Positions 18,624-63,474 of a stretch of DNA of 64,000 nt are shown piece by piece. The stretch covers positions 1 through 64,000 of the forward strand of contig NZ_JBFCVL010000010.1 in NCBI RefSeq assembly GCF_040712075.1. The letters are read 5' to 3'. The notes beneath the pieces were generated by a model. That model worked only from the letters and a program-made list of their open reading frames with translations. It ran no database searches and was not told where the DNA came from. The translations under genes were made by a program, and so were the position numbers. This stretch comes from Fodinicurvata sp. EGI_FJ10296. GTDB lineage: Bacteria > Pseudomonadota > Alphaproteobacteria > DSM-16000 > Inquilinaceae. The number at the start of each line of letters is the position of its first letter. The stretch's first letter is position 1.

Positions 18624-18715
18624 TCAGCTAACCAACAACGCCGACGAGATCGCGTCAAGAAACTTAGCCGGGCGGCTATCTTTTTTCCTCCTGTGGGCAG
18701 AATGCGCCACATCGG

Positions 18716-21229: not shown

Positions 21230-21274
21230 TCAATCGTCCCTTCGCGGGCGGGCTGACTCTTCGACAGTAGCTAT

Positions 21275-21440: not shown

Positions 21441-21544
21441 TCTCCGCACAATCACCGACCGCTCCGGGGTTGCCGGAGGGGGTCTGCTTCAAGTTTCACA
21501 GCCGTGATCGGCTCTCCCAATTCGGCGAAATCGCGACTCATGCT

Positions 21545-21569
21545 GGAACATCGAACGCCCGCCATTGTT
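21545..21569 (+). promoter_or_regulatory. Candidate EcfG-type general stress promoter
   Basis: GGAAC (21545-21549), 16 bases, then TGTT (21566-21569). The alphaproteobacterial EcfG consensus is GGAAC-N16/17-CGTT, so one base differs in the -10 part. It lies 32 bases before the start of the PRC-barrel gene, a type of gene often under EcfG control. Confidence 0.35.
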
Positions 21570-21601
21570 GACGGTACACACCAAAAGGAAGAGAGACATC
21601 C

Positions 21602-22051: not shown

Positions 22052-22132
22052 CAGGCGGCGACGGTCTCAATGACAATGGCTACCGGTGGAGGGCTTCTGA
22101 CCTGCGTCGCAGGCTGCCGCCCCCATCAGCCT

Positions 22133-23599: not shown

Positions 23600-23610
23600 A
23601 ACCTTGATCC

Positions 23611-47542: not shown

Positions 47543-47618
<76 letters not shown>

Positions 47619-47914: not shown

Positions 47915-48145
47915 CTCGACTCCGCCGCCCGTCGGCGCAAATACCTCACCGCCACAGAACGTCAGGCGTTCCTGCACGCCGCGAAAGATGCCGCTTTCGA
48001 AGCGCTCTCCTTCTGTCACATGCTTATCGCCGGTCGAATCGCTCTCAACGACGGGCTGATCGTTTTCGATAATCTGAAGAAGCGCCGTTCCAACGTCCTT
48101 CGGGCTGTGCCGGCGCCGGGGCCACCCCTGGGAGTCTCGATCCGG
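47915..48145 (+). pseudogene. Tyrosine recombinase (integrase) remnant
   Basis: The frame reads RRRKYLTATERQAFLHAA, then IALNDGLIVFDNLKKRRS and LRAVPAPGPPL. This matches the catalytic-domain start of small XerD-like integrases, where K-Y-L-T-x-x-E-R-x-x-F is followed by a G-C-R-I-S-E block and then D-x-G-x-I-V-F-E-x-L-K-K-R-R. The G-C-R-I-S-E block with the first catalytic Arg is deleted (A-G-R-I-A-L instead), and the C-terminal His/Arg/Tyr part is absent. The frame happens to stay open into the LysR gene. Lies ~300 bases beyond tRNA-Thr. Family assignment is from motif memory. Confidence 0.55.
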
Positions 48146-48226
48146 TGCTTTCCTGCCGCTATAGCTCACTCCTTATGCGTCAGCCGCATCAGTACATCTA
48201 TAAGCTTCAGCAATTGGGAGAAAATC

Positions 48227-49186
48227 GTGACCGAAAAAAAACATCGCAAACGCGGGCGCATCCCTGGACCGGACTTCGGGCGAACAACTGAGTTGAGCTT
48301 TACCCACCTGCAAGATTTCGCCGCCGTTGCCACCAACAAGAGTTTTTCCAGGGCTGCCACGGCACTCGGCAGCAACCAATCCAGCGTTTCGCGGTCGATT
48401 ATGCATCTTGAAGAAACGATTGGTGTTCGGCTGTTCGATCGGATTGGACGGACGGTGACGCTTACGGCAAACGGGGATCGACTTCTCAAGCTTGCGCGCG
48501 ACGTGATAGCGGCACAGTACGCCTTGGCACAAGGCGCGCAGGAGCTGTCGTCGGGCCGAAAAGGCGTGATACGGATCGGAGCCACTATCCAAACCATCCA
48601 AAGCCGATTGTCGCCCCTGGTCAGTTCATTCCGGGCGCGATTTCCGGATGTAGATGTATTTTTTGTCGAAGACACGACCGAGGTACTTGTTCGAAAGCTG
48701 GAAGACGGCGATCTCGATTTGGCGATCGGTTGGGCACCCGCAGACAGCCCAATAAAGGGGCTTCGCTTATTCACTCTGTGGGCCCAGGCCGTGATCCCCA
48801 AATCCCATCCGCTATCCGATCGTCAAAGCATCGATGTCGACTCCCTCGCTGGCGAGCGGCTCTTGATCATGCGGCGCGGATACATGACCCGTGAAATGTT
48901 TGAAGGCATATGTCAGCTACGCGGTATTCGCACCATCCCCATCCTGGAGAGCCATAATCCCCATGCGCTGGTGGCGATGAGCAATGACGGGCACGGTATC
49001 GCCATTGTGCCTTCAACCGTCGGCGCTATGCCTCCCGACGTCCGCGTTGCCGAATTGACCGAGGGGGGGCGACGTCTGGCCCACGATATGATGATCCTGT
49101 GGGATAGTCGGCGTCATCAGTCCGACTTGTGCCATGCCTTCGTTGAGCATGCCATGGCAGCGCCAGACCGGCTCGATTTTGTCTAA
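48227..49186 (+). CDS. LysR-family transcriptional regulator
   Basis: 319 residues from GTG 48227, with GGGAG eight bases upstream. A basic leader (MTEKKHRKRGRIPGPDF) precedes the helix-turn-helix: LQDFAAVATNKSFSRAATAL then GSNQSSVSRSIMHLEETIGV and RLFDRIGRTVTLTANG. The C-terminal type 2 periplasmic-binding-like domain begins VIRIGATIQTIQSRLSPLV. The frame is open back to 47891, but that part is the integrase remnant. Transcribed toward the TRAP genes and not divergent from them, yet it is the only regulator of the segment and is followed by a palindrome, so it probably controls the transporter operon (inference). Confidence 0.9.
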   Translation: MTEKKHRKRGRIPGPDFGRTTELSFTHLQDFAAVATNKSFSRAATALGSNQSSVSRSIMHLEETIGVRLFDRIGRTVTLTANGDRLLKLARDVIAAQYALAQGAQELSSGRKGVIRIGATIQTIQSRLSPLVSSFRARFPDVDVFFVEDTTEVLVRKLEDGDLDLAIGWAPADSPIKGLRLFTLWAQAVIPKSHPLSDRQSIDVDSLAGERLLIMRRGYMTREMFEGICQLRGIRTIPILESHNPHALVAMSNDGHGIAIVPSTVGAMPPDVRVAELTEGGRRLAHDMMILWDSRRHQSDLCHAFVEHAMAAPDRLDFV

Positions 49187-49217
49187 TCTATGCTTATTAT
49201 GCATCCGAGAAAAGCTA

Positions 49218-49245
49218 TTGACACATTGATTGACGGAGCTATAGC
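49218..49245 (+). promoter_or_regulatory. Candidate sigma-70 promoter for the TAXI-TRAP operon
   Basis: Perfect -35 TTGACA (49218-49223), 16-base spacer, TATAGC (49240-49245). Start of transcription would be ~130 bases before the binding-protein gene, so the palindrome at 49312 would fall in the leader. Confidence 0.45.
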
Positions 49246-49311
49246 CTAAGTGAATAGCGATCATTGCTGCGGTCAAATCCCAGCGTAAATAAGAATCGCC
49301 CAGCTTGTTCT

Positions 49312-49329
49312 ATGCAAAATATTTTGCAT
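49312..49329. promoter_or_regulatory. 18-base perfect palindrome, candidate LysR operator
   Basis: ATGCAAAATATTTTGCAT, each half the exact complement of the other, 54 bases before the binding-protein start. The partial motif ATGCTTATTATGCAT-like sequence near 49193 repeats the ATGC half-site. LysR regulators bind AT-rich dyads of this type (T-N11-A). Confidence 0.6.
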
Positions 49330-49382
49330 GGCGAGAGGCTTTGTCTGATTGATATCAGGATACCGAATTGGGAGACAGTTCA

Positions 49383-50342
49383 ATGAAATTTACCGTGGTT
49401 ACACATAGAGTATTTATGGCGACCGCTTTTGTCGCGCTCGCGGGTGCTGCGCATGCACAGCCGAACCAGCTGACGATCGTCAGTGGATCCCCGGGTGGAT
49501 CCTGGTATCCAATCGCAGCCGGCATGTCCGCCATATTTGGTCGAGAGGGCATTCGGTCCAACGCCGAGACGGGAGCCGGGGTCACCAATATGATCCAGGT
49601 TTCGATGGGCCAAGCCGAGCTTGGCGTTACAACGTCGACAATTCCACCGATGGCGGAAGCTGGAGAGGCGCCATTTGAGCAGACGCTGGACAACAATCGG
49701 GCCTTGGCCACGTTGTTTCCCAATGCGATGCACATTGCCGTAACAGATGATAGTGGCATCGCCACGTTGGATGATCTTGTCGGCATGCGGATCAATACGA
49801 CAGCCGTCGGAAATTCTACTCAGCAGGCATTTGTTGATGTTTTGACGGCCGCGGGGATAGAGGAATCCGAGGTAGAAACCAGCCGTGGCAGTCAGAACTT
49901 CGCAGCCGATGCAGTGAAGGATGGAAGCCTTGATGGCTTGGTACTGCTCTCAGCGTATCCCAACGGCACTTATACCGAGTTGTTCTCCTCGGTCGATATG
50001 AATTTGCTGAGCCTGGACGAAGAAATATTGGCAGCTCTGGGCGAGGCCAACCCTGGTTACAGCCCGTCCACGATCCCGGCCGGCACCTATCCAGGTCAAG
50101 ACGACGATGTCGCAACCGCGCGCTCGGACCTGATCCTGTTCGCCAACCAGGATATGTCCGACGAAGACGCTCACTGGATCGTGTCAACGCTGTTGAATCA
50201 TATGGACGAACTTCAAGGGATCCATGCGATCATGTCGGATTTGACTCCGGATACCATGGCCAATGTCCAGGGCATGCCGCTCCACCCGGGAGCTCTTGAG
50301 GCCTACAGCGCCGCTGGCATCGCGATCCCGGACGCTGATTGA
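49383..50342 (+). CDS. TAXI-family TRAP transporter substrate-binding protein
   Basis: 319 residues from ATG 49383 (ribosome site GGGAGA). Signal peptide MKFTVVTHRVFMATAFVALA ending AAHA-QP. TAXI signature at the mature start: QLTIVSGSPGGSWYPIAAGM, then NAETGAGVTNMIQVSMGQAE and GVTTSTIPPMAEAG. A late QDDDVATARSDLILFANQDM region matches the usual hinge. Delivers an organic acid or amino-acid-like solute in the periplasm to the fused permease encoded next. TAXI ligands are mostly unknown (glutamate and 2-oxoglutarate-like compounds in known cases), so the substrate is open. Confidence 0.93.
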   Translation: MKFTVVTHRVFMATAFVALAGAAHAQPNQLTIVSGSPGGSWYPIAAGMSAIFGREGIRSNAETGAGVTNMIQVSMGQAELGVTTSTIPPMAEAGEAPFEQTLDNNRALATLFPNAMHIAVTDDSGIATLDDLVGMRINTTAVGNSTQQAFVDVLTAAGIEESEVETSRGSQNFAADAVKDGSLDGLVLLSAYPNGTYTELFSSVDMNLLSLDEEILAALGEANPGYSPSTIPAGTYPGQDDDVATARSDLILFANQDMSDEDAHWIVSTLLNHMDELQGIHAIMSDLTPDTMANVQGMPLHPGALEAYSAAGIAIPDAD

Positions 50343-50431
50343 CGGCTCCATTGGTTGCCGGTGCGGCGGCCGATTGCATCGCCGCACCGGCGATTGATTT
50401 CCACCGGGTTGTCCCAGCATGAGAATTGAAC

Positions 50432-52324
50432 ATGACCGTTGGAATTTCATATTTCGTAACGGCGTTGTGTCTGGCCATGTCGAGCTATCATATCGTCGTG
50501 GCCTATGTCGGGACCCCGATTGCCGAAATTCACTACCCGCTCCATTTATTATTCGTTCTTCTGATCGTATTTTGGACATCGAACATCCCTGAAAGTTTTG
50601 GCAAGAAACTTTTGTTTTTGTCTTGGAATGTAATTCTTTCAATAACTGTTATTTCTTCTTGTCTATACCTTTCACTGAACTCTAATTATATACAGCAGCG
50701 CATTATGTTTATTAGCGCCTTAACATCAACAGAAATCATACTTTCTATTGGTCTTATCATCGCTGTGTTCGAAGCGGCGCGTCGAACTGTGGGTATGGTA
50801 CTTTCTATCGTCGTGGGTGCATTCCTGCTCTATGCCGTATTCGGTTTCTATTTGCCGTATCCGTTCTGGCACAGAGGTTATGGATTTCAATATATTTTGG
50901 AAACTACGTATCTGACCCAGGACGGGCTCTGGGGTGCGCCCATTGCGGTAACCGCCAACTATGTATTTCTGTTCATCCTGTTCGGTAGTTTTCTGGTTGC
51001 CTTTGGTGCGGTTGGCTTCTTCAAACTTATCGCTACCCGTCTGACCGCCGGCATGACCGGTGGCGCTGCCAAATCCTCCGTTTGCTCAAGCGCACTGATG
51101 GGCACCCTGACTGGAAGCTCAGCGGCAAATGTCGTCGTGACTGGCTCGTTCACCATTCCTACAATGAAAGCGGCCGGCTATAGGCCGCATTTCGCCGGGG
51201 CGGTTGAAGCGGTCTCTTCTTCAGGCGGGCAGTTCATGCCACCAATCATGGGGTCGGCCGCCTTCATTATGATGGAATTCATCGGCGTTCCATATGCGAC
51301 CATTATGGGAGCCGCGATAATTCCGGCAATTTTATATTTTGCTGCTGTATTTTGCATGGTCGATCTGGAGGCAAGGCGGCTCGGGCTACACCATGATGGG
51401 AGCAATGAAGATGGTCCCATATTCAAACTTCTTGCTTCGTATACATATCTGGTCTTGCCGATATTCGTCCTGATCTGGCTATTGGTCGAGGGTGCGACAC
51501 CAACGCGGTCGGCGTTCTGGGCAATAGTGGCTGTGATTTTTGCTTATGCAGCCTTCGTCCGCCCCGCACCGAAAACCTTTGTGGAAGCTTGCTTCCAGGC
51601 GATGACCCAGGCACCGAAACTCGTCGGCCCTGTTGTGGTGGCCTGCGCCTGTGGCGGCATTATCATCGGCCTGATCACGATGACCGGTCTTGGTTTGCGC
51701 ATGAGTTCGATTGTTTTGACACTTGCTCAGGACAGCCTGCTCTTGCTGCTTGGACTCACGATGATTGCCGGTGTAGTCCTGGGTATGGGAATGCCGACAT
51801 CAGGCGCCTATATCATTCTTGCCGTGCTCCTGGCACCGGGAATGATCGAGTTCGGCGTTACGCCCCTCGCAGCACACATGTTTATCATGTACTGTGCTGG
51901 CGTTTCGGCTATTACGCCCCCGGTTGCCTTGGCATCGTTCGCTGCAGCCGGTCTTGCTGGCGCCAATCCGTGGAAAACCAGCATAACGGCTTTTCGGCTT
52001 GGGCTGGCGAGTTTCATTATTCCCTACATGTTCGTCTACGGCCCGCCGCTACTGGGCTATGGCAGTATCCTTGAAATCGGCTGGTCGAGCCTGACCGCGC
52101 TCGTCGGCATCGGTTCGCTGTCGATAGCCCTGATCGGATGGCTGTTTCACCCACTTTCCGCGATCAACCGCCTCCTATTCTTTGCGGGCTCACTTTGCCT
52201 GATTCAGCCCGGATTGGCCATTGATGCTGCGGGGCTCGCGATCATTCTTTGCGCCTATTTGCTGAGCCGGACCGCAATCGGATCAGTATCGAAAGCTCAA
52301 AACCCCGAAGTAAAAATCAAATGA
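50432..52324 (+). CDS. TRAP transporter fused permease (DctQ-DctM type)
   Basis: 630 residues from ATG 50432 (TTG 50426 is also in frame). Small-subunit-like helices at the N-terminus (ISYFVTALCLAMSSYHIVVA), then the large permease: GSFLVAFGAVGFFKLIATRL, GTLTGSSAANVVVTGSFTIP (Na+-site loop), GGQFMPPIMGSAAFIMMEFI and VLGMGMPTSGAYIILAVLLA. This 4TM/12TM fusion is the normal partner of TAXI proteins. Sodium-driven secondary uptake across the inner membrane. The stretch 50560-50900 is clearly richer in A/T and uses rarer codons (ATA, AAT, TTA) than the rest of the window, a sign of foreign origin. Confidence 0.94.
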   Translation: MTVGISYFVTALCLAMSSYHIVVAYVGTPIAEIHYPLHLLFVLLIVFWTSNIPESFGKKLLFLSWNVILSITVISSCLYLSLNSNYIQQRIMFISALTSTEIILSIGLIIAVFEAARRTVGMVLSIVVGAFLLYAVFGFYLPYPFWHRGYGFQYILETTYLTQDGLWGAPIAVTANYVFLFILFGSFLVAFGAVGFFKLIATRLTAGMTGGAAKSSVCSSALMGTLTGSSAANVVVTGSFTIPTMKAAGYRPHFAGAVEAVSSSGGQFMPPIMGSAAFIMMEFIGVPYATIMGAAIIPAILYFAAVFCMVDLEARRLGLHHDGSNEDGPIFKLLASYTYLVLPIFVLIWLLVEGATPTRSAFWAIVAVIFAYAAFVRPAPKTFVEACFQAMTQAPKLVGPVVVACACGGIIIGLITMTGLGLRMSSIVLTLAQDSLLLLLGLTMIAGVVLGMGMPTSGAYIILAVLLAPGMIEFGVTPLAAHMFIMYCAGVSAITPPVALASFAAAGLAGANPWKTSITAFRLGLASFIIPYMFVYGPPLLGYGSILEIGWSSLTALVGIGSLSIALIGWLFHPLSAINRLLFFAGSLCLIQPGLAIDAAGLAIILCAYLLSRTAIGSVSKAQNPEVKIK

Positions 52325-52331
52325 GGAATCG

Positions 52332-53381
52332 ATGTCTAAAAACCAAACGTCGACAGAGCGACGGTTTCAGCCAATCGACTGGCGAAGCGAACTGTCCGAT
52401 CGCGCTGCAAAATTGAACGATGAGGCCGTAATCTGCGACTTATGTTTACCGTGGACTGCGGAAAATCTTCATGCGCGCAGCGGTGTTCTGGAAGGATATG
52501 CGGCAGCCGGGGGGACATACACGTCGCTATCATGCGGCTTCGGCAACATGGCCGGTTTCGAAGGAACAATGCGACACGTTGCGCAGGAACGACAGCGCAT
52601 ACGAAATAACCCGGAAGCCATCGTTCAGGTGGGGAGTGTCGCAGAGATCAGGGCCGCGAAGCGCGATGGTCGCCTGGCGGCGTCCTTCAACCTCCAGGGT
52701 GCAGATCCGCTCGGAGGCGAAATTTCCATGGTCGATGTTTACTATCGGCTGGGTGTGCGCCAGATGCTGTTTTGCTATAACCAACGCAACATGGCGGGCG
52801 ATGGGTGCCATGAGCGAACCGATAGCGGACTGAGCCGCTTTGGTGTCGAACTGGTGCGCGAAATGAATCGGGTCGGTATGCTTATCGACTGCACCCATAC
52901 CGGCTATCGCACCACCATGGAAATCATGGACTTGTCGGAATATCCGGTAATCTTCAGCCACTCAAACCCGAGGGCGTTGTTTGATCACGGGCGCAATATT
53001 ACAGACGAGCAGATCAAGCGGTCCGCTGAGACAGGTGGCCTTGTCGGCGTAAATGGCTTTGGCGCTTTCCTGAGCGCCGACGGTCAGGATGCATCCCCGG
53101 CAAAGGTAGCGCGTAATATTGATCACATAGTTCAACTCGTTGGTTCCCAGCACGCCGCACTTGGTTTCGATGCTGTATATACGCCCGAAATAACTTATGG
53201 TCGCATGATGACAATGGTGACCAGTTATCCCGACTATCCGCAACCGCCCTGGGATTTTTTATTGCCGCATAGGGTCCCTGAACTAACACAGGAATTCGTG
53301 GATCTCGGCTATTCAGACGAAGCGATTCTGGGCATACTTGGCGAGAATTTTCTTCGCGTTGCTGATGCTGTTTGGAAATAA
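52332..53381 (+). CDS. M19 (renal dipeptidase)-like protein with altered metal ligands
   Basis: 349 residues, no signal peptide, so cytoplasmic. Starts eight bases after the permease stop with GAGGA as ribosome site. M19 landmarks: GLSRFGVELVREMNRVGMLI, DCTHTGYRTTMEIMD (His189), VIFSHSNPRALFDHGRNI (His210, Arg214), GFD (Asp280), ILGENFLRV (ending matches ILGGNFLRV). But the first-metal residues are changed: the H-N-D-L-P box is D-L-C-L-P (Asp36, Cys38) and the E-G-G box is Q-G-A-D (Gln122). Family knowledge: M19 enzymes cut dipeptides and some N-acyl-D-amino acids with two zinc ions. Here a mono-metal site and a different substrate are likely (inference). Confidence 0.88.
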   Translation: MSKNQTSTERRFQPIDWRSELSDRAAKLNDEAVICDLCLPWTAENLHARSGVLEGYAAAGGTYTSLSCGFGNMAGFEGTMRHVAQERQRIRNNPEAIVQVGSVAEIRAAKRDGRLAASFNLQGADPLGGEISMVDVYYRLGVRQMLFCYNQRNMAGDGCHERTDSGLSRFGVELVREMNRVGMLIDCTHTGYRTTMEIMDLSEYPVIFSHSNPRALFDHGRNITDEQIKRSAETGGLVGVNGFGAFLSADGQDASPAKVARNIDHIVQLVGSQHAALGFDAVYTPEITYGRMMTMVTSYPDYPQPPWDFLLPHRVPELTQEFVDLGYSDEAILGILGENFLRVADAVWK

Positions 53382-53412
53382 AAATCCAAGACTTACTATG
53401 ATGGAGAAGAAG

Positions 53413-54327
53413 ATGTCACGTCCATTCAAAGTGTGTGCCGTTCAGACTGGCGCCGTAGGTCCGAATGATTTACCCGACATGGTCCAAAGAACCTGCGCTG
53501 AAATCTCTCGGGCCGGATCGGAAGGGTGTGACATCATTTCTTTTCCGGAATTATATTTGTCACCATTTTTCGCAAATCGCCTGGATGAAAGTGCCAGGAA
53601 ATACTTCATTTCGATTTCTGGCCCGGAGATGGAGAAAATCAGGGATGCCGTTGCAAAGGCAAAAATCAATGCCGTCGTCCCTTTTGCGGAATATAGCGGG
53701 GTCGGGTATCATAACAGCGCGGCGGTTTTCGACAGATCCGGGTCCTTGGTCCAGATCTATCGCAAGACCCATATCCCGGCATATTTTCCAACTGACCGAC
53801 CTGGCGGAACTGGAAGTTATGAGAAATTATATTTTCAACCCGGCGACCAGCTGAAAACCGTAATGCTGGATGGCGTTTCCGTGGGCGTACTGATCTGCTA
53901 TGATCGCTTGTTTCCGGAAGCGAGCCGCAGTCTGGCGCTGGAGGGGGCCGAGGTTATTATTATACCGATCAGCTACTCCAACTACAGCGACGCCGACCAT
54001 CGCAGCGGCATATGGGATGTGCCAATCCGGAGCCGAGCCTATGAAAACGGCGTATTCGTGGTTGCCTGCAACCGAGTTGGCGTTGAGGGTGTCCGGCAGC
54101 ATATCGGCCGAAGCCTGATTGTCGATCCCAAAGGCGCCATTCTATTGGAAGGAGATGGTGCCAATGAAGATCGTCTTTCCGTTACACTGGACATCGATTC
54201 CACTCGGGATGCCCGAATCAACTTTCCGTGGTGGCGTGATCGTCGGCCGGATCTTTACAGGACAAGCAGTAGCGAGAAATTCGGGCGATCCTGGCGTCAC
54301 GACGCACCTGACAGTTCATTGACCTGA
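53413..54327 (+). CDS. Nitrilase-superfamily amidohydrolase (N-carbamoylputrescine amidase-like)
   Basis: 304 residues from ATG 53413, preceded by GGAGAAGA; earlier in-frame ATGs at 53398 and 53401 are weaker. Triad complete: Glu46 in ISFPELYLSPF, Lys118 in IYRKTHIPAYFP, Cys162 in VLICYDRLFPEASR. The FPELYLSPFF and YRKTHIP motifs place it in the carbamoyl/amidase branch with N-carbamoylputrescine and beta-ureidopropionase relatives. Begins 31 bases after the M19-like gene, so it belongs to the LysR-TRAP-M19 unit. Together they suggest import of a compound that carries an amide or carbamoyl group and an acidic part, then stepwise hydrolysis (inference). Confidence 0.9.
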   Translation: MSRPFKVCAVQTGAVGPNDLPDMVQRTCAEISRAGSEGCDIISFPELYLSPFFANRLDESARKYFISISGPEMEKIRDAVAKAKINAVVPFAEYSGVGYHNSAAVFDRSGSLVQIYRKTHIPAYFPTDRPGGTGSYEKLYFQPGDQLKTVMLDGVSVGVLICYDRLFPEASRSLALEGAEVIIIPISYSNYSDADHRSGIWDVPIRSRAYENGVFVVACNRVGVEGVRQHIGRSLIVDPKGAILLEGDGANEDRLSVTLDIDSTRDARINFPWWRDRRPDLYRTSSSEKFGRSWRHDAPDSSLT

Positions 54328-54416: not shown

Positions 54417-55016
54417 TCAGCGGGAGAAGTCGTGCGGATTATTGCAGGTCAATCGGCGCAGAAACAGCGGTGATGGCATTTCCCCGATACCGGTTTCCAT
54501 CACCCAAAGCGCCTGGATTTCATAGGCTTCGCGTTCAGCCTCAAGTGTGCACCGGAATTCGGCCGCCGACTCCCACTGCAGATGATGCACAAGTTCATGC
54601 ACCAGTGTGAAGTTGCAACCTACCGATTCAAAGTCTTCCGCCAGCAGAATGATCGGAGGCGTGTATAGCGCGTTGATGCAATCCTGCTGTTGGTACCCCT
54701 CGGGCAATTGCGAGTATACGATATAGTTGATCGTGGTTCTCGGCACCTTCACAAAGGCGGGCATGGTGTCCATTCGGTCGTAGGGCGAATTTTCGAAAAT
54801 CCACTCGACGATGCGGTCAACCTCAGCCAGAAATTCAGGCGGGGGAATGGGATCGAACCCCGCCTCGTTCGACGGTACGTTCAGCGCGGCAGTTGGCGCG
54901 GCGTTGGACGAAGACTGGCCACGAGCCGGCCCGCCGTCCAGGAACACGACAAGAAGACACGCCGCCAGGACGAAGCCGGCAATTCGACACACGGCACTTC
55001 TCCTTCTCGGATCCAT
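54417..55016 (-). CDS. Exported small putative zinc metalloprotein (HExxH, DUF6647-like)
   Basis: 199 residues. Signal peptide (CRIAGFVLAACLLVVFLDG ending ARG-QS). Mature part has FLAEVDRIVEWIFENSPYDR, PPIILLAEDFESVGCNFTLV and the zinc motif VHELVHHLQW, with a likely third ligand in EREAYEIQALWV. This looks like the DUF6647-type HExxH family, often of ~180-220 residues; no proven activity. Two Cys (DCIN and VGCNF) could form a disulphide. The last gene before the C69-like gene, but on the other strand; together with the next two genes it makes a run of three exported peptidase-like proteins. Confidence 0.75.
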   Translation of the reverse strand: MDPRRRSAVCRIAGFVLAACLLVVFLDGGPARGQSSSNAAPTAALNVPSNEAGFDPIPPPEFLAEVDRIVEWIFENSPYDRMDTMPAFVKVPRTTINYIVYSQLPEGYQQQDCINALYTPPIILLAEDFESVGCNFTLVHELVHHLQWESAAEFRCTLEAEREAYEIQALWVMETGIGEMPSPLFLRRLTCNNPHDFSR

Positions 55017-55286
55017 GGCACGGATACATCACCTGAACTTGACGACTCAGGTATGGGCCTTACCCTCAGGCCGCGTCAACCGCGACGAGAGTCGCATTTT
55101 CGTGGCGGATGACGATATCGCCAACCTCGCGCGCTCGATTCAGCCATGGATTCACCGAGCGAGCTGGAACACAACCCTTCCTTCTGCGTTGTGCAGGCAT
55201 GGCTCTTGCAACTGCCCCGTCATGTTTGATGACGAAGGCTGTTGCCGAAGCCAGCACTGTCTTCGTTTTTGGAAGGGGGATCATCC

Positions 55287-56996
55287 GTGAGACATCGTCA
55301 ACACTTCCGCGGCGTCTGCGCGCGCCGTACTCTGCCATTCGTTTGCACCCTGGCATTCGTCACTGCGACCCAAGCGGCTGCCGAAGATGCCGGGCCAGGC
55401 AATGCGGGGCCGGGCGCCAGGAATTTTCCCGGCGAAAAGAGCATTGGCATCTTTATCGGCAACGAGTTGACTGCCGACGGTTCCACGATCCTGGCCGGGT
55501 TCGGTCACGAGCCGTCCAGCCACTGGATCGAGATCGTCCCGCGTCAGGAGCATCCGGAGGGGTCGACCACGCGCGTCGGCGTCACCGAGGACGCCTGGAT
55601 ACCTGGCGAATTGACCGACATTCCCCAGGCCGCGACGACCTATAAGTACATCACGTCGAATTATTCCGAATATGCCGGCTTCCCGCCGCCGCTGACCAAT
55701 GGCGGTCTCAACGAACACGGCGTCGCCGCGCGGGATATCTGGTCGCCGTCGCGTGCAGAACTGGTCGAGATGTCGGAAGAAGCCGCCGAAACCCAGCCGC
55801 AAACCGGGCCGAATTACAGCGATCTCGCCCGCGCAGCCATGGAAAGGGCGACAACGGCCCGCGAAGCGGTCGAGATCATAGGCGATCTGATCGACGAGCA
55901 CGGTTTTTCAACCTATGGTGGTAATTCCCACCTGTTCGCCGACGAAAATGAAGGCTGGGTCTTCATCAACTATGCCGGCGGCGAGGGCCTGTGGGCGGCC
56001 GAGCGGATCGGCCCCGACGAAGTCCGGGTATCCTATCCGGGCTACATCCACGAGTTCCCCGCCGACTTTGAAGGCTCCGACGATTATATGGCCTCGGACA
56101 ATCTGGTCGAATTCGCGCGTGAGCAAGGCTGGTGGGACGGCGGGGAAACGCTGAACCTGCAGGACGTCCTTGGCCAGCCCTTCCCGGCCGACGATCCCAG
56201 CGCCACCGTTCCCGCCTTCTATTCCGCAGCGCGCAATCCGCCCGAACGGGAACGGGAACTGGAGGACATGGCACCGATCCGGCTGGAAGACATGCTGGCT
56301 TATGTCCGCGACCCTCGCTGGGCGGATGATCGTGCCGGCTATGGTCAGGTGGCCCATATCAGGCCGGACGTTCACCCGGAACTGCAGACGCTGTGGGTCG
56401 CGGTGACCGGCGCGATCACGACGCCCTTCGTACCGATCCCGATCGGGACTGAATCCGTCCCGCCGGAATTCACGCAGCACCGCTACATGACGAAGGATGC
56501 GGACTCGCACTTCCTCGATGCGGATTATGCACCGGTGGAAGCCACGCGCTATGCCACCCGGACTTTCAAGCGGCTGCTCTATCACACCTGCGAGCGTCCC
56601 GAGCAGTTCCTGCACCCGGTGACCGGCGAGATCGAACTTTTCGAGCAGGATCTGCTCGACGAGCGCGAAGGGTTCGAGCGTCGCGCCCTAGAGAGTTTCG
56701 ACGCCGGCGACAACGGCGAGGCCCGCGACCTCATTACCCGCAACGTGGAACGGCGGCTTTTGCAGGCGCTCGACCTGGGTGAGGATCTTGTCTCGGTCGT
56801 GGAGCGGCGCACCCGCCAGGAACACGGCATCCGCATGCCCGAGGGTGAAGACGCCGAGGGCGAGACCACGCCGGCGACCAGCCAGCACATGGCGCGTCCC
56901 AGCCTGGCCGGCAGGATCCATTGCTATGACGAGGCCCTGGACGAATACCCGCGCGAACATGGGCAGTATCGGGACTCGGCCGACCTGCTTCGGTAG
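55287..56996 (+). CDS. C69-family dipeptidase-like protein with Ser at the nucleophile position
   Basis: 569 residues from GTG 55287 (GGAAGGGGG upstream). Signal peptide (LPFVCTLAFVTATQAAA-ED). C69/PepD features: IFIGNELTADGSTILAGFG, YKYITSNYSEYAGFPPPLTN, GGLNEHGVAARDIWSPSR, ARAAMERATTAREAVEII, GNSHLFADENEGWVFINYAG and QHRYMTKDADSHFLD. In the family the mature enzyme starts with a Cys nucleophile (C-T-T-x-x-V-G-K); here the aligned residue is Ser52 (S-I-G-I-F-I-G-N), and the usual R-N-E-D further on is G-F-G-H-E. It may be a Ser-dependent Ntn hydrolase or inactive. A leader of ~20 residues between signal and Ser52 would need removal. Confidence 0.82.
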   Translation: MRHRQHFRGVCARRTLPFVCTLAFVTATQAAAEDAGPGNAGPGARNFPGEKSIGIFIGNELTADGSTILAGFGHEPSSHWIEIVPRQEHPEGSTTRVGVTEDAWIPGELTDIPQAATTYKYITSNYSEYAGFPPPLTNGGLNEHGVAARDIWSPSRAELVEMSEEAAETQPQTGPNYSDLARAAMERATTAREAVEIIGDLIDEHGFSTYGGNSHLFADENEGWVFINYAGGEGLWAAERIGPDEVRVSYPGYIHEFPADFEGSDDYMASDNLVEFAREQGWWDGGETLNLQDVLGQPFPADDPSATVPAFYSAARNPPERERELEDMAPIRLEDMLAYVRDPRWADDRAGYGQVAHIRPDVHPELQTLWVAVTGAITTPFVPIPIGTESVPPEFTQHRYMTKDADSHFLDADYAPVEATRYATRTFKRLLYHTCERPEQFLHPVTGEIELFEQDLLDEREGFERRALESFDAGDNGEARDLITRNVERRLLQALDLGEDLVSVVERRTRQEHGIRMPEGEDAEGETTPATSQHMARPSLAGRIHCYDEALDEYPREHGQYRDSADLLR

Positions 56997-57031
56997 CGCA
57001 TGCGCGCCTGGGCGTAGCCGTCCACTGTGTC

Positions 57032-57086
57032 ATGGCGGCGTGGTCCCGCGATAGTGGCGTGACTGACGCCCGGACCACGCCGCCAT
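57032..57086. terminator. Compound hairpin between two convergent genes
   Basis: ATGGCGGCGTGGTCC (57032-57046) pairs perfectly with GGACCACGCCGCCAT (57072-57086), 15 base pairs. Inside the 25-base loop GGCGT/ACGCC forms a second 5-base stem. No strong T-run on either side, but the position between the C69-like gene and the metalloprotease gene suggests a two-way terminator. Confidence 0.65.
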
Positions 57087-57098
57087 TATTCCGGCCGA

Positions 57099-59828
57099 TC
57101 AACGATAGTAGTTCCTCGGCACATCGGTTGTCGTCAAGACATCGTTGCCGCGTCGGATGACGACATCATGGGCATTGGCGTCGTCGGCGATGCGAACAGA
57201 GAATTGCGCCCACCAGAACGGTTCGTCGACATTGAGCCCGGCTTCGGCGAGCCGGTCTCTCGCGGCCTGATTCTCCACCAGCGGCGGCTCGGGCCGGAAG
57301 TGCGAGACGGCGATCACTGTTCCGGCGGAATCGCGCAACTCGGCTGTATAATCGCCGCTGTCATCCGGGTTCTCGTCGGTGGCGTCGTGGTCAAGCCAAT
57401 GGGTGCTTTCGATCACGGCGCCGGATCCGTCCGGATGAAGGGCGCCGCTGATCATCAGGCTGGACGTCTCCGCCGGGCCGGATTCTGCATAGGCAGTGCT
57501 GAACAAGGAAGGCCAGGCCGGCGGTGCGCGGTCGATGCCGCCGGATTCAATGACCGTCCCAGTGCCCGCAAAAGCATTCAGCAAATGGTCATAGTGATCA
57601 TCGAGTATAAAGACCCGATCCAACGGCCTGATTGCCGGAAACATGACGGGAAACAGCTGACCGTGTTCCTGATTGCCGTCCGTGGAAGACTTGTTCCAGC
57701 CTTCAAGGCCGTCCCGTCTGATGCGGAATCCTTCGATTCCATCAAATTCGCCCATCTCGTCGCGCGGCGTGATTTCGCTCATATGACCCGGATAATGATG
57801 GAGTCCATAGACATGGGTCAATTCATGAACGAGGCCATGAGCCAGCGCCTCGCGCTCGATTGCCACCGCCGGTGACATGTTGGCGTCGAGCGGCATCCGC
57901 ACGACCCTGCGGTCGAATCCGCTATCGGCGTCCTCTGGGCGAACCTGAACACCGCTGACGGCCAGTCCGTGATCCAGGAAGTTCAAGGGGTGAAAGGCCA
58001 CCAGAACGTCGTTGGGTCCGATCTGGCCGGCAAAATGCCGACCGAGCCGCAGCAGCATGCGGCGAACGATGGCGTCCGGACCGATCGACCATTCGCTGTC
58101 CTCGATGTCGGAGAACGCCTGTTGAATCGCATCCGTGACGCCCTCGGCATCGTCCAGCAGGGTCGATACCGTGTCGCCCGGTGTGTAAGGGCCGAGCGGA
58201 CTGGCCGCCGTGCCGAGAACGGGAAAGACCTGGGTCGTGAAATCGCTCGCGTCGTTCAGGATCCCGTTCAGACGGCCGAGATCCGTCATGTCGAGACTGT
58301 CGCTCCACGTTCCGACTTTCAATGTTACCCAGTGCAGCGTCAGCGGATCCTGCGGCGTTCCTTGCCACATCGGTGCTTCGCGGTTGAAGTCCCAGCTAAG
58401 GTCGGGCCGGGGCGCCGGATAGACGTCATGGGGCGTCAGCTCCATCGCCAGATCGACGGCGCCGTCGCCGCCCGGTTGCCAGCCATAGTAGTTCAGCGTC
58501 GTCCGCGCCATGCGCCGATGCTGCTCGGTGGCGACCTCGTCCGGGTGCCGGACGCGAAGAACCGTATCGTCCTGGATGTCGTGCCATTCGCCGAATTGAT
58601 CCTGCACCCGGCGATGAGCCGGCATCAGATCGACCTCGGCGGGAAAGGCGTCAACCTGCCATCCCGGTTCGATGTGTTCGTGCAAAGTCCAATTGACCGA
58701 CATCCGGGTCATTGTTCGCTTTCCGGGCACGAGCGGCGCGTTCCGGGTGGTCTGATAGACGTCGAGGCTGAACCGGTCGTTTTCATCGGCCTGAGTGCCC
58801 AGATCCACGACCGTGAAGAAATCCCACCAATGATCGGCTTCGAGAACGGCGCCGTCCACACCTTCGACCCCGTCAGCGCCGCCTTCGATCGTCGCCCGGT
58901 AACGAACCCCCGGATCAAGTTGTTCGTCCGGCCGAAAAGTGAATGTCGTCCCGCCGCCGGTGACGGTGCCGGCGATAGATATGCGCTGGCCGCCGGGCGC
59001 ACGGGTTTCCAGCGTGAATGCGTCGGACATGGTTTCGGCGACGACCGGTTCGCTGAATTCAACCGTGATCGGCGGCGTGTCGAAATCCACGTTTTCCCGT
59101 TCCATGGACGGTTGCGTTTCAACGACGGTCAATGGATCGTCCCGCAACGGCGGATCGACGGCGGGCGTCAGTTCGACGTGGTAGAAAAAATCGACGTCCT
59201 GGGCCGGGGCACTGTCCCGGACCAGGCCGACCATCCGTTCCGTAGATGTCATGATCAGGTTGATATCGGTAATCGCGCCCGGAAGGCCGGAAGCCCGGCC
59301 GATCAGCCTTGGCAGGTCCCTGGGCGCGCAGCCCGACTGCGCTTCGATGCCGGACAGTGTGAAGGGCGGGTCGATGCGCACACCGTCATCGGTTTCAACG
59401 GATTTGAGCCGGGGCAGGGGATCGTCGGATTCGGCGAATTCGAACGCCACCGTCATGCTGGCGGGTCCCGGAATCGGACGCCAACCAGGCGGCTCCGGCG
59501 ACGGCTCTGCTCCGGCGGCAGGCCGACCGCTCAGCCCCGACGAGCCCGATCGGCTCATGATGAAACCGCCATCCTCGCGTGGTTCCGGTTCGGCGACGAT
59601 GGGGCGTGGGCCGATCAGGGCATATCCGTTCAGGTAGCGGACATACCATGCCCCATGATCGATCGAGACGATCCCGTCGAGCAGTGCGTCGAGAGCTTCG
59701 GGGTCGTCTGGCATGCCGCAAAGCCGCGTCTCCTGCGCACTCGCCGGGGTTCCGGCGACAGTAATCGCCGCAAATGCCGCCGACACTGCGACCGTGCCCG
59801 CATAGACACCAATTCGTGCCGCGATCAT
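57099..59828 (-). CDS. Large exported metzincin-type metalloprotease with an Ig-like domain
   Basis: 909 residues from ATG 59828. Signal peptide GTVAVSAAFAAITVAGTPAS ending ASA-QE. Unrecognised N-terminal part (~30-300) with a possible disulphide pair, then a Big_5/SbsA-type Ig-like domain (~300-400: DTPPITVEFSEPVVAETMSD, TFTFRPDEQLDPGVRYRATI). A long central region follows, then the zinc motif HELTHVYGLHH at ~666-676, which is the full HExxHxxGxxH of metzincins, with a possible Met-turn in LFPVMFPAIRP. The C-terminal ~120 residues look like a beta-sandwich (SSLMISGALHPDGSGAVIES, AQFSVRIADDANAHDVVIRR). Probably secreted or periplasmic. I cannot name the family. The frame extends to 60011 upstream but the signal peptide fixes the start. 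Confidence 0.8.
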   Translation of the reverse strand: MIAARIGVYAGTVAVSAAFAAITVAGTPASAQETRLCGMPDDPEALDALLDGIVSIDHGAWYVRYLNGYALIGPRPIVAEPEPREDGGFIMSRSGSSGLSGRPAAGAEPSPEPPGWRPIPGPASMTVAFEFAESDDPLPRLKSVETDDGVRIDPPFTLSGIEAQSGCAPRDLPRLIGRASGLPGAITDINLIMTSTERMVGLVRDSAPAQDVDFFYHVELTPAVDPPLRDDPLTVVETQPSMERENVDFDTPPITVEFSEPVVAETMSDAFTLETRAPGGQRISIAGTVTGGGTTFTFRPDEQLDPGVRYRATIEGGADGVEGVDGAVLEADHWWDFFTVVDLGTQADENDRFSLDVYQTTRNAPLVPGKRTMTRMSVNWTLHEHIEPGWQVDAFPAEVDLMPAHRRVQDQFGEWHDIQDDTVLRVRHPDEVATEQHRRMARTTLNYYGWQPGGDGAVDLAMELTPHDVYPAPRPDLSWDFNREAPMWQGTPQDPLTLHWVTLKVGTWSDSLDMTDLGRLNGILNDASDFTTQVFPVLGTAASPLGPYTPGDTVSTLLDDAEGVTDAIQQAFSDIEDSEWSIGPDAIVRRMLLRLGRHFAGQIGPNDVLVAFHPLNFLDHGLAVSGVQVRPEDADSGFDRRVVRMPLDANMSPAVAIEREALAHGLVHELTHVYGLHHYPGHMSEITPRDEMGEFDGIEGFRIRRDGLEGWNKSSTDGNQEHGQLFPVMFPAIRPLDRVFILDDHYDHLLNAFAGTGTVIESGGIDRAPPAWPSLFSTAYAESGPAETSSLMISGALHPDGSGAVIESTHWLDHDATDENPDDSGDYTAELRDSAGTVIAVSHFRPEPPLVENQAARDRLAEAGLNVDEPFWWAQFSVRIADDANAHDVVIRRGNDVLTTTDVPRNYYR

Positions 59829-60289
59829 AGTGTGGCCACCGATGCCTGTTGCCGGGTCCGCCTCATGACATTTGCCTCCTCTCTTAGCGTCACTTCTGCT
59901 TGCACTCATGATTCTACAGGCCCAGTTCGATTGCCGCAATGCTCGGGAGAAGCACCCGATTACAGAATGCCCGCGACCGGGCCCGAGGCGCCCGCAATAT
60001 AGACCGGGCAATCCGATTCACGAGCCCGAAGCCTCCGCAGGGAATCATGGCGCAAGCTGCTGGGTGGACGCGGGGCACTGCCTTGCATCTGAACGCTGAC
60101 ATTCGCCACGATCTCAGCCGCCCCGCCTGAATCCATGCCAGTATCTGTACATACAAGGCTATGGAGACCGACACGCTTCAAAGCTTGTTTCCACATTGAT
60201 TCTGAATAATAATAAAATGAAACGGATGAGTGGTGAGGGCCTCCGGGCATCGACTTTCGCGATTCGGACTCCGCAACATTGAGGTCTTC
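59829..60289. other. Intergenic region between divergent metalloprotease and amidase operon
   Basis: 461 bases without a supportable gene. Holds an A/T-rich patch at 60180-60220 with a promoter candidate, and a 21-codon frame (ATG 60217 to TGA 60282) that ends eight bases before the amidase GTG; this could be a leader peptide but has no independent support. Confidence 0.45.
60185..60212 (+). promoter_or_regulatory. Candidate promoter of the amidase-ABC operon
   Basis: TTGTTT (60185-60190), 16-base spacer, TAATAA (60207-60212). Reasonable sigma-70 form in the only A/T-rich patch upstream of the operon. Confidence 0.35.
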
Positions 60290-61813
60290 GTGGCTCACAA
60301 GGAACTCGTCGCCGGTCTTGAAGCCATCTTGACGACCGCCGACCGCGTCGGTTTCGACGACCCAACGATACCGGCCTTCGCGCCGCACACCGTCAAAGCG
60401 GCGCCGCAATTCGCATCGGACGCTCCGCTCCATAACACGTCGATCCGATCCGCGATCTTGCCGATCGCCGGGGCCTACCGGTCCGGTCGATCCGCGCCGG
60501 GCACCGTTGTCCACACCGCGCTTTCGGCAGCCGAGGGGTCGGATAACGCGTTTTTGCGGCTGACCCCGGCGGAAGCCCGGACGGCGGCGGCGGCGTCCGA
60601 CGCCCGGTTTTCAGACAACGCGCCAGTCGGATTGCTCGACGGTATCCCGATTGCGGTAAAGGACGTCATCGACATCGCCGGCCATCCCACAACCGGGGGC
60701 AGCGCCCTTTTCAAGGATCGCGTGGCAGCGACGGACGGCGAATGCGTGGCGCGATTGAAGCAGGCCGGCGCCGCGATCATCGGCAAGACGGTCCTGCATG
60801 AATGGGCCTATGGCGTTACTTCGGACAATCCCGCTCATGGCCGCGTTGGCAACCCCCGCGCCCGGGGACGAATTCCCGGCGGCTCCAGCGGCGGGTCAGC
60901 AGCAGCCGTGGCGGCCGGAATTGTGCCGGCGGCGCTCGGATCAGATACCGGCGGATCGGTCAGGATTCCCGCATGCTGTTGCGGAATCGTCGGATTCAAA
61001 CCGAGCTACGATCTGATCTCCCGGCAGGGCGGTGTTCCGCAGGCCTGGAGCCTCGATCACATCGGACCGCTAACAGAGACGGTTGCCGATGCCTGGCTGA
61101 TGACGGCGGCGGCCTCCGGATCTCAGGCCCTCATGGACCGATTCACAGACTCCTTTGCATCCGGCCCGACGGGCGCTCTGAACGGGATGGCACTCGGCAT
61201 CCCGTCCAATTGGGAACGGGGCGTATCCGACGAGGTGGCCGAGGCTGTGGGAACGGCCATAGGCATACTCACCGACGCCGGCGCCCGCATCAGCACCTTC
61301 GACTACCCGGATACCGACGTCGCCCGCGCCGCCTGGCTCATGATCATAATTTCGGAATCGGCCGCTTATCATCGCGAGCACATGAAAAAGCATCCCGAGG
61401 CCATTTCCGACGATGTGCGGGTATTTCTGCAGGCAGGAGGAGAAGCACGCGCCGTCGACTATCTCCGCGCTCAGCAATTCCGCCGGGCCTGGTGCCGCGA
61501 AGTCGCCGACGCGATGGGTGGCTTCGACGCCGTTATCTCGCCCACGTTGCCTGATGTTCCGCCTGAAATCGGGCAGGAAATTCTTACCCTTCGTTCAGGG
61601 CCGACGCCCGTGCGGGATGCGATGGTCACCTTTCAGTGGCCGGCAAACCTGCTGGGGGCGCCATCACTGTCGCTTCCGCTGGGCACTCGCCACGCGCTCC
61701 CGACCGGACTGATGGTGACGGGCCGGTATGGATGCGACGGCGACCTGCTGCATCTCGCGGCACGGATCGAAAACTGCCTCACGCTTGCGGATGGTACGAA
61801 TGACGGTTTCTGA
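60290..61813 (+). CDS. Amidase-signature family amidohydrolase
   Basis: 507 residues from GTG 60290 (GTG 60230 is also in frame and would add 20 residues). Ser-Ser-Lys triad complete: Lys ~122 in [14 protein letters not shown], Ser ~197 in [19 protein letters not shown], Ser ~218 in [20 protein letters not shown]. The triple Cys after the signature is unusual. Hydrolyses amides, ureides or carbamoyl compounds; relatives near Liv-type transporters act on the imported compound or a product of it. First gene of an operon with two ABC ATPases and a binding protein, overlapping the first ATPase gene by 14 bases. Confidence 0.9.
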
Positions 61814-62600
61814 AAGTCCCGCCGGAGATGCTGACGATGCACTGCTGGAGACGAGAGGGCTTACGAAGTCGTTCGGCGGCGTGACGGCCGTCGCCGACGT
61901 GGATCTGATGGTTCGGCGCGGGCAGCTCAACGCTGTCGTCGGGCCCAACGGCGCCGGAAAGACAACGCTTTTCCATCTCCTTACCGGAACCATGCCGGCC
62001 ACAGCCGGACATGTGATCTTCGAGGGTGAAGACATCACACGCACGGGCCTGAGTGCCCGTGTCAAACTCGGGATCGCGCGTTCCTACCAGAAGACGAACA
62101 TTTTCCCGCGGCTTTCAGTCCGACAGAACATCCTGGCGGCCGCCTATCGAGCCAAGGGCGTGGGTTGGACGTCGATGTTCGGACGGCGAAAGGAAGTCGA
62201 GGCGGCCGAAGCTCTGGCGGATCGGATACTCGGTGAGCTTGATCTGGCCGATCAGGCGCACAAGGAAGCGCAGACCCTTCCCTATGGGGCGCAACGCCTG
62301 ATCGATATCGGCATCGCGCTCGCGTGCGAGCCAAGCCTGCTGCTGCTGGACGAACCGACGAGTGGCCTGTCGTCAGGCGAATTACAGAAGACGATCGCCT
62401 TCATCAGTGACCTGAAATCCCGCTACTCCATTCTCCTGATCGAACACAATATGGACCTCGTTCTGGAATTCGCCGACGGCATTACCGTGCTCAACTTCGG
62501 CCATGTGATCGCAAGGGGAAATGCCGCTGAAATTTCGGCGGATGAGGGAGTTCAGGAAGCGTATTTCGGACGAAGTGTCAGCCCTGAAGGTGTCGCATGA
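61800..62600 (+). CDS. Branched-chain amino acid-type ABC transporter ATPase (LivG-like)
   Basis: 266 residues from ATG 61800, inside the end of the amidase gene. Walker A VVGPNGAGKTTLFHLLTG, LivG-specific insertion RTGLSARVKLGIARSYQKTN, signature region TLPYGAQRLIDIGIALACEP (L-P-Y-G in place of L-S-G-G, as usual in LivG/UrtD), Walker B LLLLDEPTSGLSSGE, switch His in LLIEHNMDLVLEFAD. One of the two ATPases powering a Liv-type importer. Ends in an ATGA overlap with the second ATPase gene. Confidence 0.94.
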   Translation: MTVSESPAGDADDALLETRGLTKSFGGVTAVADVDLMVRRGQLNAVVGPNGAGKTTLFHLLTGTMPATAGHVIFEGEDITRTGLSARVKLGIARSYQKTNIFPRLSVRQNILAAAYRAKGVGWTSMFGRRKEVEAAEALADRILGELDLADQAHKEAQTLPYGAQRLIDIGIALACEPSLLLLDEPTSGLSSGELQKTIAFISDLKSRYSILLIEHNMDLVLEFADGITVLNFGHVIARGNAAEISADEGVQEAYFGRSVSPEGVA

Positions 62601-63301
62601 CCGGCCTTACCCTGTCCGGCGTCCATGCCTATTACGGCAAGAGCCACATCCTTCACGGCATCGACCTTACGCTGGATCCGGGCGAGGTCGTGGCCCTGCT
62701 CGGGCGCAACGGCGCCGGCAAGACGACCACTATTCGAACCATCGCCGGATTGCTGCCCACCGCCGAAGGGCAGATTACCTTCGATGGCCGCGTTATTACG
62801 AATCTGCGGGCGGATACGATCGCGCGATCGGGCCTGATAACCGTGCCCGAAACGCGGGATATCTTCGCGACCCTGACTGTTCGCGACAACCTGATGCTGG
62901 CGGCCCGCAGGACCAGCGCGGGTGCCGGCGCCATGGAACGCGTCCTGGATACATTTCCGATCATCAGGCCACTGCTGAAACGGCTCGGCGGTCATCTCAG
63001 CGGTGGCGAACAGCAGATGGTGGCGATCGCCCGGGCCCTCCTGGCCGAACCCAAGGTCGTCATGCTCGACGAACCATCTCAGGGTCTGGCGCCGGTCATG
63101 GTCGATCTGGTTACCGATGTACTCACGACGCTGAAAAAGGAGAATATGTCGATGCTGCTCGTCGAGCAGAAGCTCGATGTGGCGATGGCGCTATGTGATC
63201 GCATCTACGTGCTCGATACCGGCCGCATCGCACACACCTGCTCGCGCAGCGAACTGGCCGATGCCCCGCAACTGGCGCAGCGGCATCTTGGCATTGGGTA
63301 A
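62597..63301 (+). CDS. Branched-chain amino acid-type ABC transporter ATPase (LivF-like)
   Basis: 234 residues. MTGLTLSGVHAYYGKSHILH is the LivF start; Walker A LLGRNGAGKTTTIRTIAGLL, RSGLITVPETRDIFATLTVR, signature LSGGEQQMVAIARALLAEPK, Walker B VVMLDEPSQGLAPVMVDLV. Starts four bases before the LivG-like stop (ATGA), so translationally coupled. The two permeases (LivH/LivM) expected for this system are not in the window and probably follow the binding-protein gene beyond the right edge. Confidence 0.95.
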   Translation: MTGLTLSGVHAYYGKSHILHGIDLTLDPGEVVALLGRNGAGKTTTIRTIAGLLPTAEGQITFDGRVITNLRADTIARSGLITVPETRDIFATLTVRDNLMLAARRTSAGAGAMERVLDTFPIIRPLLKRLGGHLSGGEQQMVAIARALLAEPKVVMLDEPSQGLAPVMVDLVTDVLTTLKKENMSMLLVEQKLDVAMALCDRIYVLDTGRIAHTCSRSELADAPQLAQRHLGIG

Positions 63302-63309
63302 GATCAATC

Positions 63310-63459
63310 ATGGAATTACCAGAGAGACACCGGATCGCCGCAGCCATGGTCGTGCTGAATGACGGCGGCGGGTCGGATGGGTTGGAGGCATGCCCCGAAA
63401 GTGCCTGCTCACGCGTTATCGGCGGCACCGCACCGTATTGCCGTCGGATGGCCGAATAA
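63310..63459 (+). CDS. Possible 49-aa Cys-containing small protein
   Basis: ATG 63310 to TAA 63459, in the gap between the LivF-like gene and the binding-protein gene. It starts MELPERHRIAAAMVVLNDGG and ends with CPESACSRVIGGTAPYCRR then MAE; the three Cys are spaced C-x4-C-x10-C. The gap of 173 bases is long for this tightly packed operon, and the frame fills it neatly with genome-like codon use. No family recognised and no clear ribosome site (GATCAATC upstream). May be chance. Confidence 0.4.
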   Translation: MELPERHRIAAAMVVLNDGGGSDGLEACPESACSRVIGGTAPYCRRMAE

Positions 63460-63474
63460 TTCAAGGAGGCTCAA

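Follow-up and report, generated by a model that had tools for sequence, protein, structure and literature searches.

A low-GC operon of LysR, TAXI-TRAP, M19-fold and nitrilase genes after a tRNA-Thr in Fodinicurvata sp. EGI_FJ10296: a candidate acquired pathway for a carboxylate without a free amino group

TAXI-type TRAP transporters have been called widespread but poorly understood, and VcGluP and TtGluBP are described as glutamate-binding TAXI proteins, according to the available part of PMC11574862. As far as the accessible sections of the two accounts go, a TAXI-TRAP importer accompanies catabolic enzymes in the opa phthalate cluster (PMC6362003), and a plasmid-borne set for acesulfame combines a LysR gene, an amidase and an anion importer (PMC10413263); both rely on enzymes other than those treated here and serve as analogies only. 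In this work, we describe a five-gene operon at positions 48227-54327 of a 64,000-nt stretch (the window; positions 1 to 64,000 of contig NZ_JBFCVL010000010.1) from Fodinicurvata sp. EGI_FJ10296. The genes encode a LysR-type regulator, a TAXI binding protein, a fused TRAP permease, an M19-fold hydrolase and a nitrilase, all on the plus strand and close-packed. Our preferred reading, to which we give even chances, is that this is an acquired operon for a carboxylate without a free amino group. A catabolic operon would have been acquired horizontally and placed after a tRNA-Thr gene, and the LysR protein would control it, probably at a palindrome at 49312-49329. The TAXI-TRAP system would import one small carboxylate lacking a free primary amino group, such as an N-acyl, N-carbamoyl or similarly capped acid. 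The cytoplasmic M19-fold barrel enzyme would then act first, hydrolyzing the substrate at a reduced metal site in which two His, one Asp and a carboxylate-binding Arg are kept, and the nitrilase would hydrolyze the resulting amide or carbamoyl acid. The substrate class, the order of the enzymes, the operator and the activity of the M19-like protein are points that we infer.

The original prediction, made from the letters of the DNA alone, had proposed these five genes in this order on one strand with short gaps, and gene positions together with family scores bear it out. Family calls used Pfam curated cut-offs for all five proteins and also NCBIfam for the TAXI and TRAP proteins. The LysR-type regulator (48227-49186, GTG start) matches PF00126 and PF03466, the helix-turn-helix and substrate domains. 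The TAXI-type solute-binding protein (49383-50342; TIGR02122, 207.3 bits, cut-off 84.35), which has a signal peptide by eye, adjoins the fused DctQM permease (50426-52324, starting at TTG 50426 or ATG 50432; TIGR02123, 585 bits, cut-off 320.65), so that a TAXI-TRAP system is present with both parts above their NCBIfam cut-offs. The M19-fold hydrolase (52332-53381; PF01244, 260.8 bits, cut-off 26), a divergent subfamily member that lacks HxD and has Gln for Glu, shows no signal peptide by eye and starts 7 nt after the TRAP stop. The nitrilase-superfamily amidohydrolase (53398-54327; PF00795, 166.6 bits, cut-off 23.2) lies in an open frame that runs from TTG 53338, and its likely starts, ATG 53398 or 53413, fall 16 or 31 nt past the M19 stop.

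The guanine-plus-cytosine (GC) content of this 6.1-kb stretch is 53.6%, as compared to 64.3% for positions 1-47400 and 62.8% for 55242-64000. It is the lowest-GC 6.1-kb stretch of the window, and the six lowest segments of that length all start within 48001-49251 when sampled in steps of 250 nt. Low values are also seen in individual genes (nitrilase 51.7%, TRAP 51.7%, M19 54.2%). Scans of promoters and terminators did not stand out from shuffled sequences, with 8 promoters observed versus 5.5 (standard deviation 1.9) and 7 terminators versus 7.1 (standard deviation 2.6).

To the extent that PMC11574862 is available, VcGluP contacts glutamate through Tyr45, Ser75, Gln93, Glu125, Tyr200 and Met201, the amino group is held by the side chains of Tyr45, Gln93 and Glu125, and a severe loss of affinity is reported only for Y45A and Q93A. 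These positions were carried over through an alignment with TtGluBP, for which that source gives the equivalents of Y45 and Q93; the others were mapped here. Like VcGluPQM and TtGluBP, the locus combines a TAXI binding protein with a fused permease, but all six of the VcGluP contacts so listed are different (Y45 to W41, S75 to G66, Q93 to T84, E125 to N114, Y200 to L188 and M201 to L189). Since only Y45A and Q93A were severe and the Tyr45 position is still aromatic (Trp41), the loss of Gln93 weighs most. The same Trp, Gly and Thr are found in a related TAXI protein of Erythrobacter. At the level of sequence, the loss of contacts speaks against free glutamate as the ligand and favors a compound with no free amino group. 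An importer of glutamate is disfavored, as the VcGluP contact residues are not kept.

A complete binuclear M19 metal site consists of an HxD motif, a Glu and two His. The model of the M19-like protein (predicted local distance difference test score 90.7) has the M19 barrel fold, and its best match is 2i5g from Pseudomonas aeruginosa, titled only 'amidohydrolase' (Z 42.8, root-mean-square deviation 2.0 over 315 residues), followed by GliJ, porcine dipeptidase, PvdM and human dipeptidase (Z 39-41); the match to 1itq has a Z of 39.4 and a deviation of 2.0 over 309 residues. The barrel is thus the one of 2i5g and of the M19 membrane dipeptidases such as human DPEP1, Sco3058 and GliJ (Z 39-43), and His189, His210, Arg221 and Asp280 are kept. 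Unlike in the membrane dipeptidases, the HxD and Glu ligands are replaced and the binuclear site is incomplete: there is no His in the first strand, Cys38 and Pro40 probably sit at the HxD, and Gln122 sits at the Glu. The best PF01244 stretch covers profile positions 59-318 of 319, which does not include the N-terminal ligand strand. Tyr149 aligns with a mammalian dipeptidase His (His152 in DPEP1). The same Gln and Tyr occur in 2i5g.

The absence of the usual first metal site is common to the whole metal-poor M19 subfamily to which the protein belongs, seen here in alpha-, beta- and gammaproteobacterial records. Asp36, Gln122, Tyr149, Cys159, His189, His210, Arg221 and Asp280 do not vary across the 18 members, whereas at position 38 there are 16 Thr and two Cys, the latter in the window and Erythrobacter proteins; the 17 members other than our own came from a scan with patterns built on four members, and the set leans to close relatives. 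In an alignment with relatives that keep the metal His ([VI]WDxH), which is gapless in this strand, Asp36 pairs with the Asp two positions before that His, Cys38 with the His itself, and Pro40 with the second HxD ligand. An earlier alignment containing wrong-strand rows placed a 2-residue gap before Cys38, and the Asp36 pairing was the same in both. Cys38 therefore probably replaces the metal His, a placement less sure than that of Asp36. The original prediction had taken Asp36, Cys38 and Gln122 as changed metal ligands and had called for their conservation to be checked. All three residues are present and the loss of ligands stands, but by alignment Asp36 is an ordinary conserved Asp and its reading as an altered ligand is most likely wrong; as to conservation, Asp36 and Gln122 hold throughout the set and Cys38 does not.

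In a tree of M19 proteins, the window and Erythrobacter sequences pair as sisters (100/100), apart from the other rows that belong to the window's order; three rows are long-branched, and the deeper place of the sister pair is weakly supported (93/66 and 82/82). A second M19 gene of the same genome encodes a normal D-L-H-V-D and Glu. A sister M19-like group from this order and class (loci L036-L042 and L044-L051) keeps [VI]WDxH and the Glu and has Gly or Cys for the second Asp ligand.

The nitrilase has an intact triad of Glu71, Lys143 and Cys187 (numbered from 53338), which together with its PF00795 score confirms the complete nitrilase-fold amidohydrolase of the original prediction. The CN_hydrolase fold and the Glu-Lys-Cys triad are shared with N-carbamoylputrescine amidase and D-carbamoylase. 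Arg190 falls on Arg175 of D-carbamoylase (1erz), a position held by Gln in AguB (5h8i), and the loop after the Lys aligns without a gap to 1erz and with a gap to AguB. Residues reported for D-carbamoylase recognition are His129, His144, Arg175, Arg176 and His215 (PMC3546935, available part), and the positions of His144, Arg176 and His215 are occupied here by Ser160, Leu191 and Trp226, the last near an alignment gap. A docking study assigns Arg176 and Asn173 to the carbamoyl group (PMC11503299, available part), and both of these positions differ as well. From the residue differences so far as these sources list them, we place the nitrilase in a separate subfamily. The identity with AguB is ruled out by a TIGR03381 score of 153.9 bits, below the cut-off of 410.25, and that with D-carbamoylase by the recognition residues. 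Judging from its sequence, the enzyme probably acts on an amide or carbamoyl acid.

Close relatives of the nitrilase occur in other contexts, a result that the original prediction had itself named as speaking for a chance assembly. At E<=1e-55, one of 384 other genomes of the class has relatives; it has two, one adjoining an acetamidase/formamidase gene and the other close to hydantoinase A/B. On plasmids, the top relative (48%) belongs to a Variovorax F420 cluster. No M19, TAXI or TRAP match was detected around three relatives of 45-50% identity in the 9, 9.3 and 31 kb fetched. The Variovorax sp. PBL-E5 plasmid 3 region (9482-23973 of the fetched stretch) also carries genes for an LLM-class oxidoreductase, a nitroreductase, RidA and an amidohydrolase, along with the F420 genes cofC, D, E, G and H and npdG, and looks like an F420-dependent degradation cluster.

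The transporter and the M19 gene recur together in a 16.1-kb contig of an Erythrobacter metagenome-assembled genome, where TAXI (53% identity), TRAP (56%) and M19 (60%) stand in the same order and a LysR gene (38.5%) is divergently placed. After M19, a flavin adenine dinucleotide (FAD) oxidoreductase (DAO) continues the unit, and there is no nitrilase. The contig also carries a MobA/MobL gene, a TraG-type gene, a ParA-type ATPase and, by eye, a resolvase, and the GC content of the module is 54.0% as compared to 63.0% for the rest. This supports a TAXI-TRAP-M19 core that, as far as gene content tells, is a transferable unit with an accompanying LysR gene. The original prediction had called for a search for the five-gene neighborhood in other genomes; the part comprising TAXI, TRAP and M19 with a LysR gene does recur, but the exact set of five was seen nowhere else in the searches. 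Chance assembly is accordingly rejected for TAXI-TRAP-M19 by the Erythrobacter recurrence, and not for the nitrilase.

M19 relatives were sought in 17 genomes of the order (E<=1e-30; 12 places besides our own) and 385 genomes of the class (E<=1e-75; 10 places), and stretches were fetched around 20 of these 22 places, all except those in genomes G003 and G012. No TAXI, TRAP or nitrilase match at E<=1e-8 was present in the 20 stretches, and a distant LysR-type match was present in five. Sixteen further M19 loci from named genomes, two of them apparently Stella loci already fetched, gave TAXI and TRAP matches in two cases and a nitrilase match in none (E<=1e-6), and one more relative (L103) had neither TAXI/TRAP nor nitrilase matches. 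The second of the two positive loci (L055) is a looser case, with two tandem M19 copies, a TRAP permease (33%), a gamma-glutamyltranspeptidase and a TAXI protein (25%) on opposite strands (1032-8345), and is possibly a pathway for a gamma-glutamyl compound. A stricter M19 profile search (E<=1e-105) of 398 Pseudomonadota genomes returned our own genome and one other, the latter of the His/Glu-bearing kind. Among plasmids, M19 matched 307 records at E<=1e-20, all below 60% identity, and none of five plasmid neighborhoods (7 kb on each side) was annotated with a TAXI protein or nitrilase. TAXI relatives at E<=1e-60 were found in five of 384 other class genomes; in the four regions fetched (all except that of G273) a TRAP partner was always present and an M19 or nitrilase match never. 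A Salipiger plasmid combines TAXI, TRAP, an annotated LysR and an amidase, with no M19 or nitrilase match. Neighbors of subfamily members, chosen by eye before scanning and not amounting to a count, include peptide-type binding proteins, gamma-glutamyltranspeptidase, hydantoinase A, an aminotransferase and FAD oxidases, which fits catabolism of amides and amino-acid derivatives.

As predicted, the operon follows a tRNA gene, tRNA-Thr(CGT) at 47543-47618 on the plus strand, which forms the left border of a species-specific stretch. The tetratricopeptide repeat (TPR) gene preceding it is matched in 15 of the order's 17 genomes (E<=1e-20, own genome counted), and a tRNA-Thr follows that gene in four of seven relatives fetched. 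The first gene past the tRNA differs by eye among those four, two of which (L096 and L098) have a gene in common further on. Six window queries, consisting of a claimed integrase remnant and five downstream genes, found no match in the ~14-kb stretches around the TPR gene in the seven relatives, except for a weak ATP-binding cassette (ABC) ATPase similarity in one (L095). Downstream of the operon, a C69-type peptidase gene (55242-56996) finds no counterpart at E<=1e-20 in any of the order's other 16 genomes. Because the genes past the tRNA differ in relatives and the C69-type gene is unmatched in the order, the region past the tRNA is specific to this species and the operon has a foreign look. 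An operon inherited within the species lineage is rejected, since same-order M19 proteins fall in other clades of the tree and the window queries are nearly unmatched at the relatives' TPR loci.

The integrase remnant proposed along with the tRNA is not supported: neither Pfam nor PHROG matches an 81-aa fragment at E<=1, and against plasmids a 42-aa piece yields three weak hits, with a best E of 0.03. A direct repeat of the tRNA end was sought within the 64-kb window, where its last 14 nt appear a single time. The features expected of a genomic island are therefore partly present, with a tRNA at the border and foreign composition, and without an integrase gene or a repeat of the tRNA end. By eye, phage- and transposase-like genes lie past the same tRNA-Thr in one relative (L099), from which this tRNA may be an insertion hot spot.

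Between the LysR and TAXI genes lies a perfect 18-nt palindrome, ATGCAAAATATTTTGCAT (49312-49329, listed on the plus strand), which is plausible as a putative LysR operator. It is the sole such site in its own genome at up to two mismatches, in a window that holds three perfect 18-nt palindromes of any sequence. The Erythrobacter contig has no counterpart, and the only sequence common to both regions upstream of TAXI is TTGACACATT (window 49218, Erythrobacter contig 2732), which could be chance.

Several observations weigh against a two-step hydrolytic operon. The HxD ligands and bridging Glu of M19 are replaced. The full five-gene set was found only in this genome, and in the 37 other stretches fetched (35 distinct) M19 never has a nitrilase match nearby, although at least 10 of these span only 4-10 kb and absence there is weak. 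No FAD oxidase follows the operon in the window, so that downstream steps differ from those in Erythrobacter. In a hand-counted alignment to 1erz, two of the five D-carbamoylase recognition residues given in the available part of the source are kept (His145 and Arg190). We regard it as a tentative possibility, one to be taken seriously, that the functional unit is LysR-TAXI-TRAP-M19 only and that the nitrilase joined it later to deal with another amide, with no two-step pathway on one compound. This would agree with the Erythrobacter unit, which runs into an FAD oxidoreductase instead of a nitrilase, and with the three nitrilase relatives beside acetamidase/formamidase, near hydantoinase A/B or in the F420 cluster. 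Against such an addition, the GC content of the nitrilase gene is as low as those of TRAP and M19 and its start is close behind M19; because low GC and tight spacing are common to both, the nitrilase probably arrived with the unit, and a role in the same pathway as M19 is likely.

With the HxD and the bridging Glu replaced, hydrolysis by the M19-like protein may be lost. It could then be a lyase, isomerase or binding protein that uses the barrel and the carboxylate-binding Arg, leaving the nitrilase as the sole hydrolytic step. The Gln in 18 of 18 members and the invariant Tyr at the mammalian dipeptidase His position speak for this, but we consider it unlikely, given that His189, His210, Arg221 and Asp280 are equally invariant and the fold match to characterized dipeptidases is high. 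Ordinary scavenging of gamma-glutamyl or Cys-Gly-type peptides, or of glutamate, appears very unlikely. It can draw on the looser locus, where genes for TRAP, gamma-glutamyltranspeptidase and TAXI proteins accompany two M19 copies, and on the binding of glutamate by VcGluP and TtGluBP (PMC11574862, available part), yet by our mapping all six VcGluP contacts are lost here and the TAXI and TRAP proteins of that locus are distant. The preferred reading, import and two-step splitting of an amide-type acid as originally predicted, gains from residues that point to an acid with no free amino group; that both enzymes act in series on one compound we infer rather than observe. A bolder form of it, which we judge quite unlikely, is a mobile cassette for a capped acid (e.g., a cyclic ureide or an N-carbamoyl or N-acyl acid, natural or man-made). 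Its M19-fold enzyme, lacking a binuclear site, would open or cut the substrate by one-metal or metal-free chemistry of a new kind, and a nitrilase of a new subfamily would finish the job, so that the logic of hydantoinase and carbamoylase would be built from other parts.

Two further features of the window lie downstream. A 199-aa secreted-looking protein is encoded on the minus strand at 54417-55016; it has no Pfam match and, by eye, a HELVHH zinc-protease-like motif, and neither it nor the M19 protein matched a defense library. At 60230-63301, an amidase-signature enzyme is immediately followed by two ABC ATPases, the first with a match to a branched-chain amino acid transporter C-terminal domain, which is possibly a second unit for amide uptake and hydrolysis.

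In the open-access papers searched, we found no account that joins membrane dipeptidase with TRAP transporter, catabolism and gene cluster, or with nitrilase, operon and degradation, and nothing that pairs PA5396 with dipeptidase or brings together three of renal dipeptidase, metal ligands, peptidase M19 and amidohydrolase. Among the TAXI papers listed, no title or opening of an abstract describes this gene set. The general kind of system is already known; what is new is the gene combination and the metal-poor M19 subfamily. Members of this subfamily match a dipeptidase family even though the ligands for that chemistry are absent. As the TAXI-TRAP-M19 unit ties one transporter to one enzyme, the ligand of the TAXI protein would suggest the substrate of the enzyme and would test the 'dipeptidase' label of its relatives.

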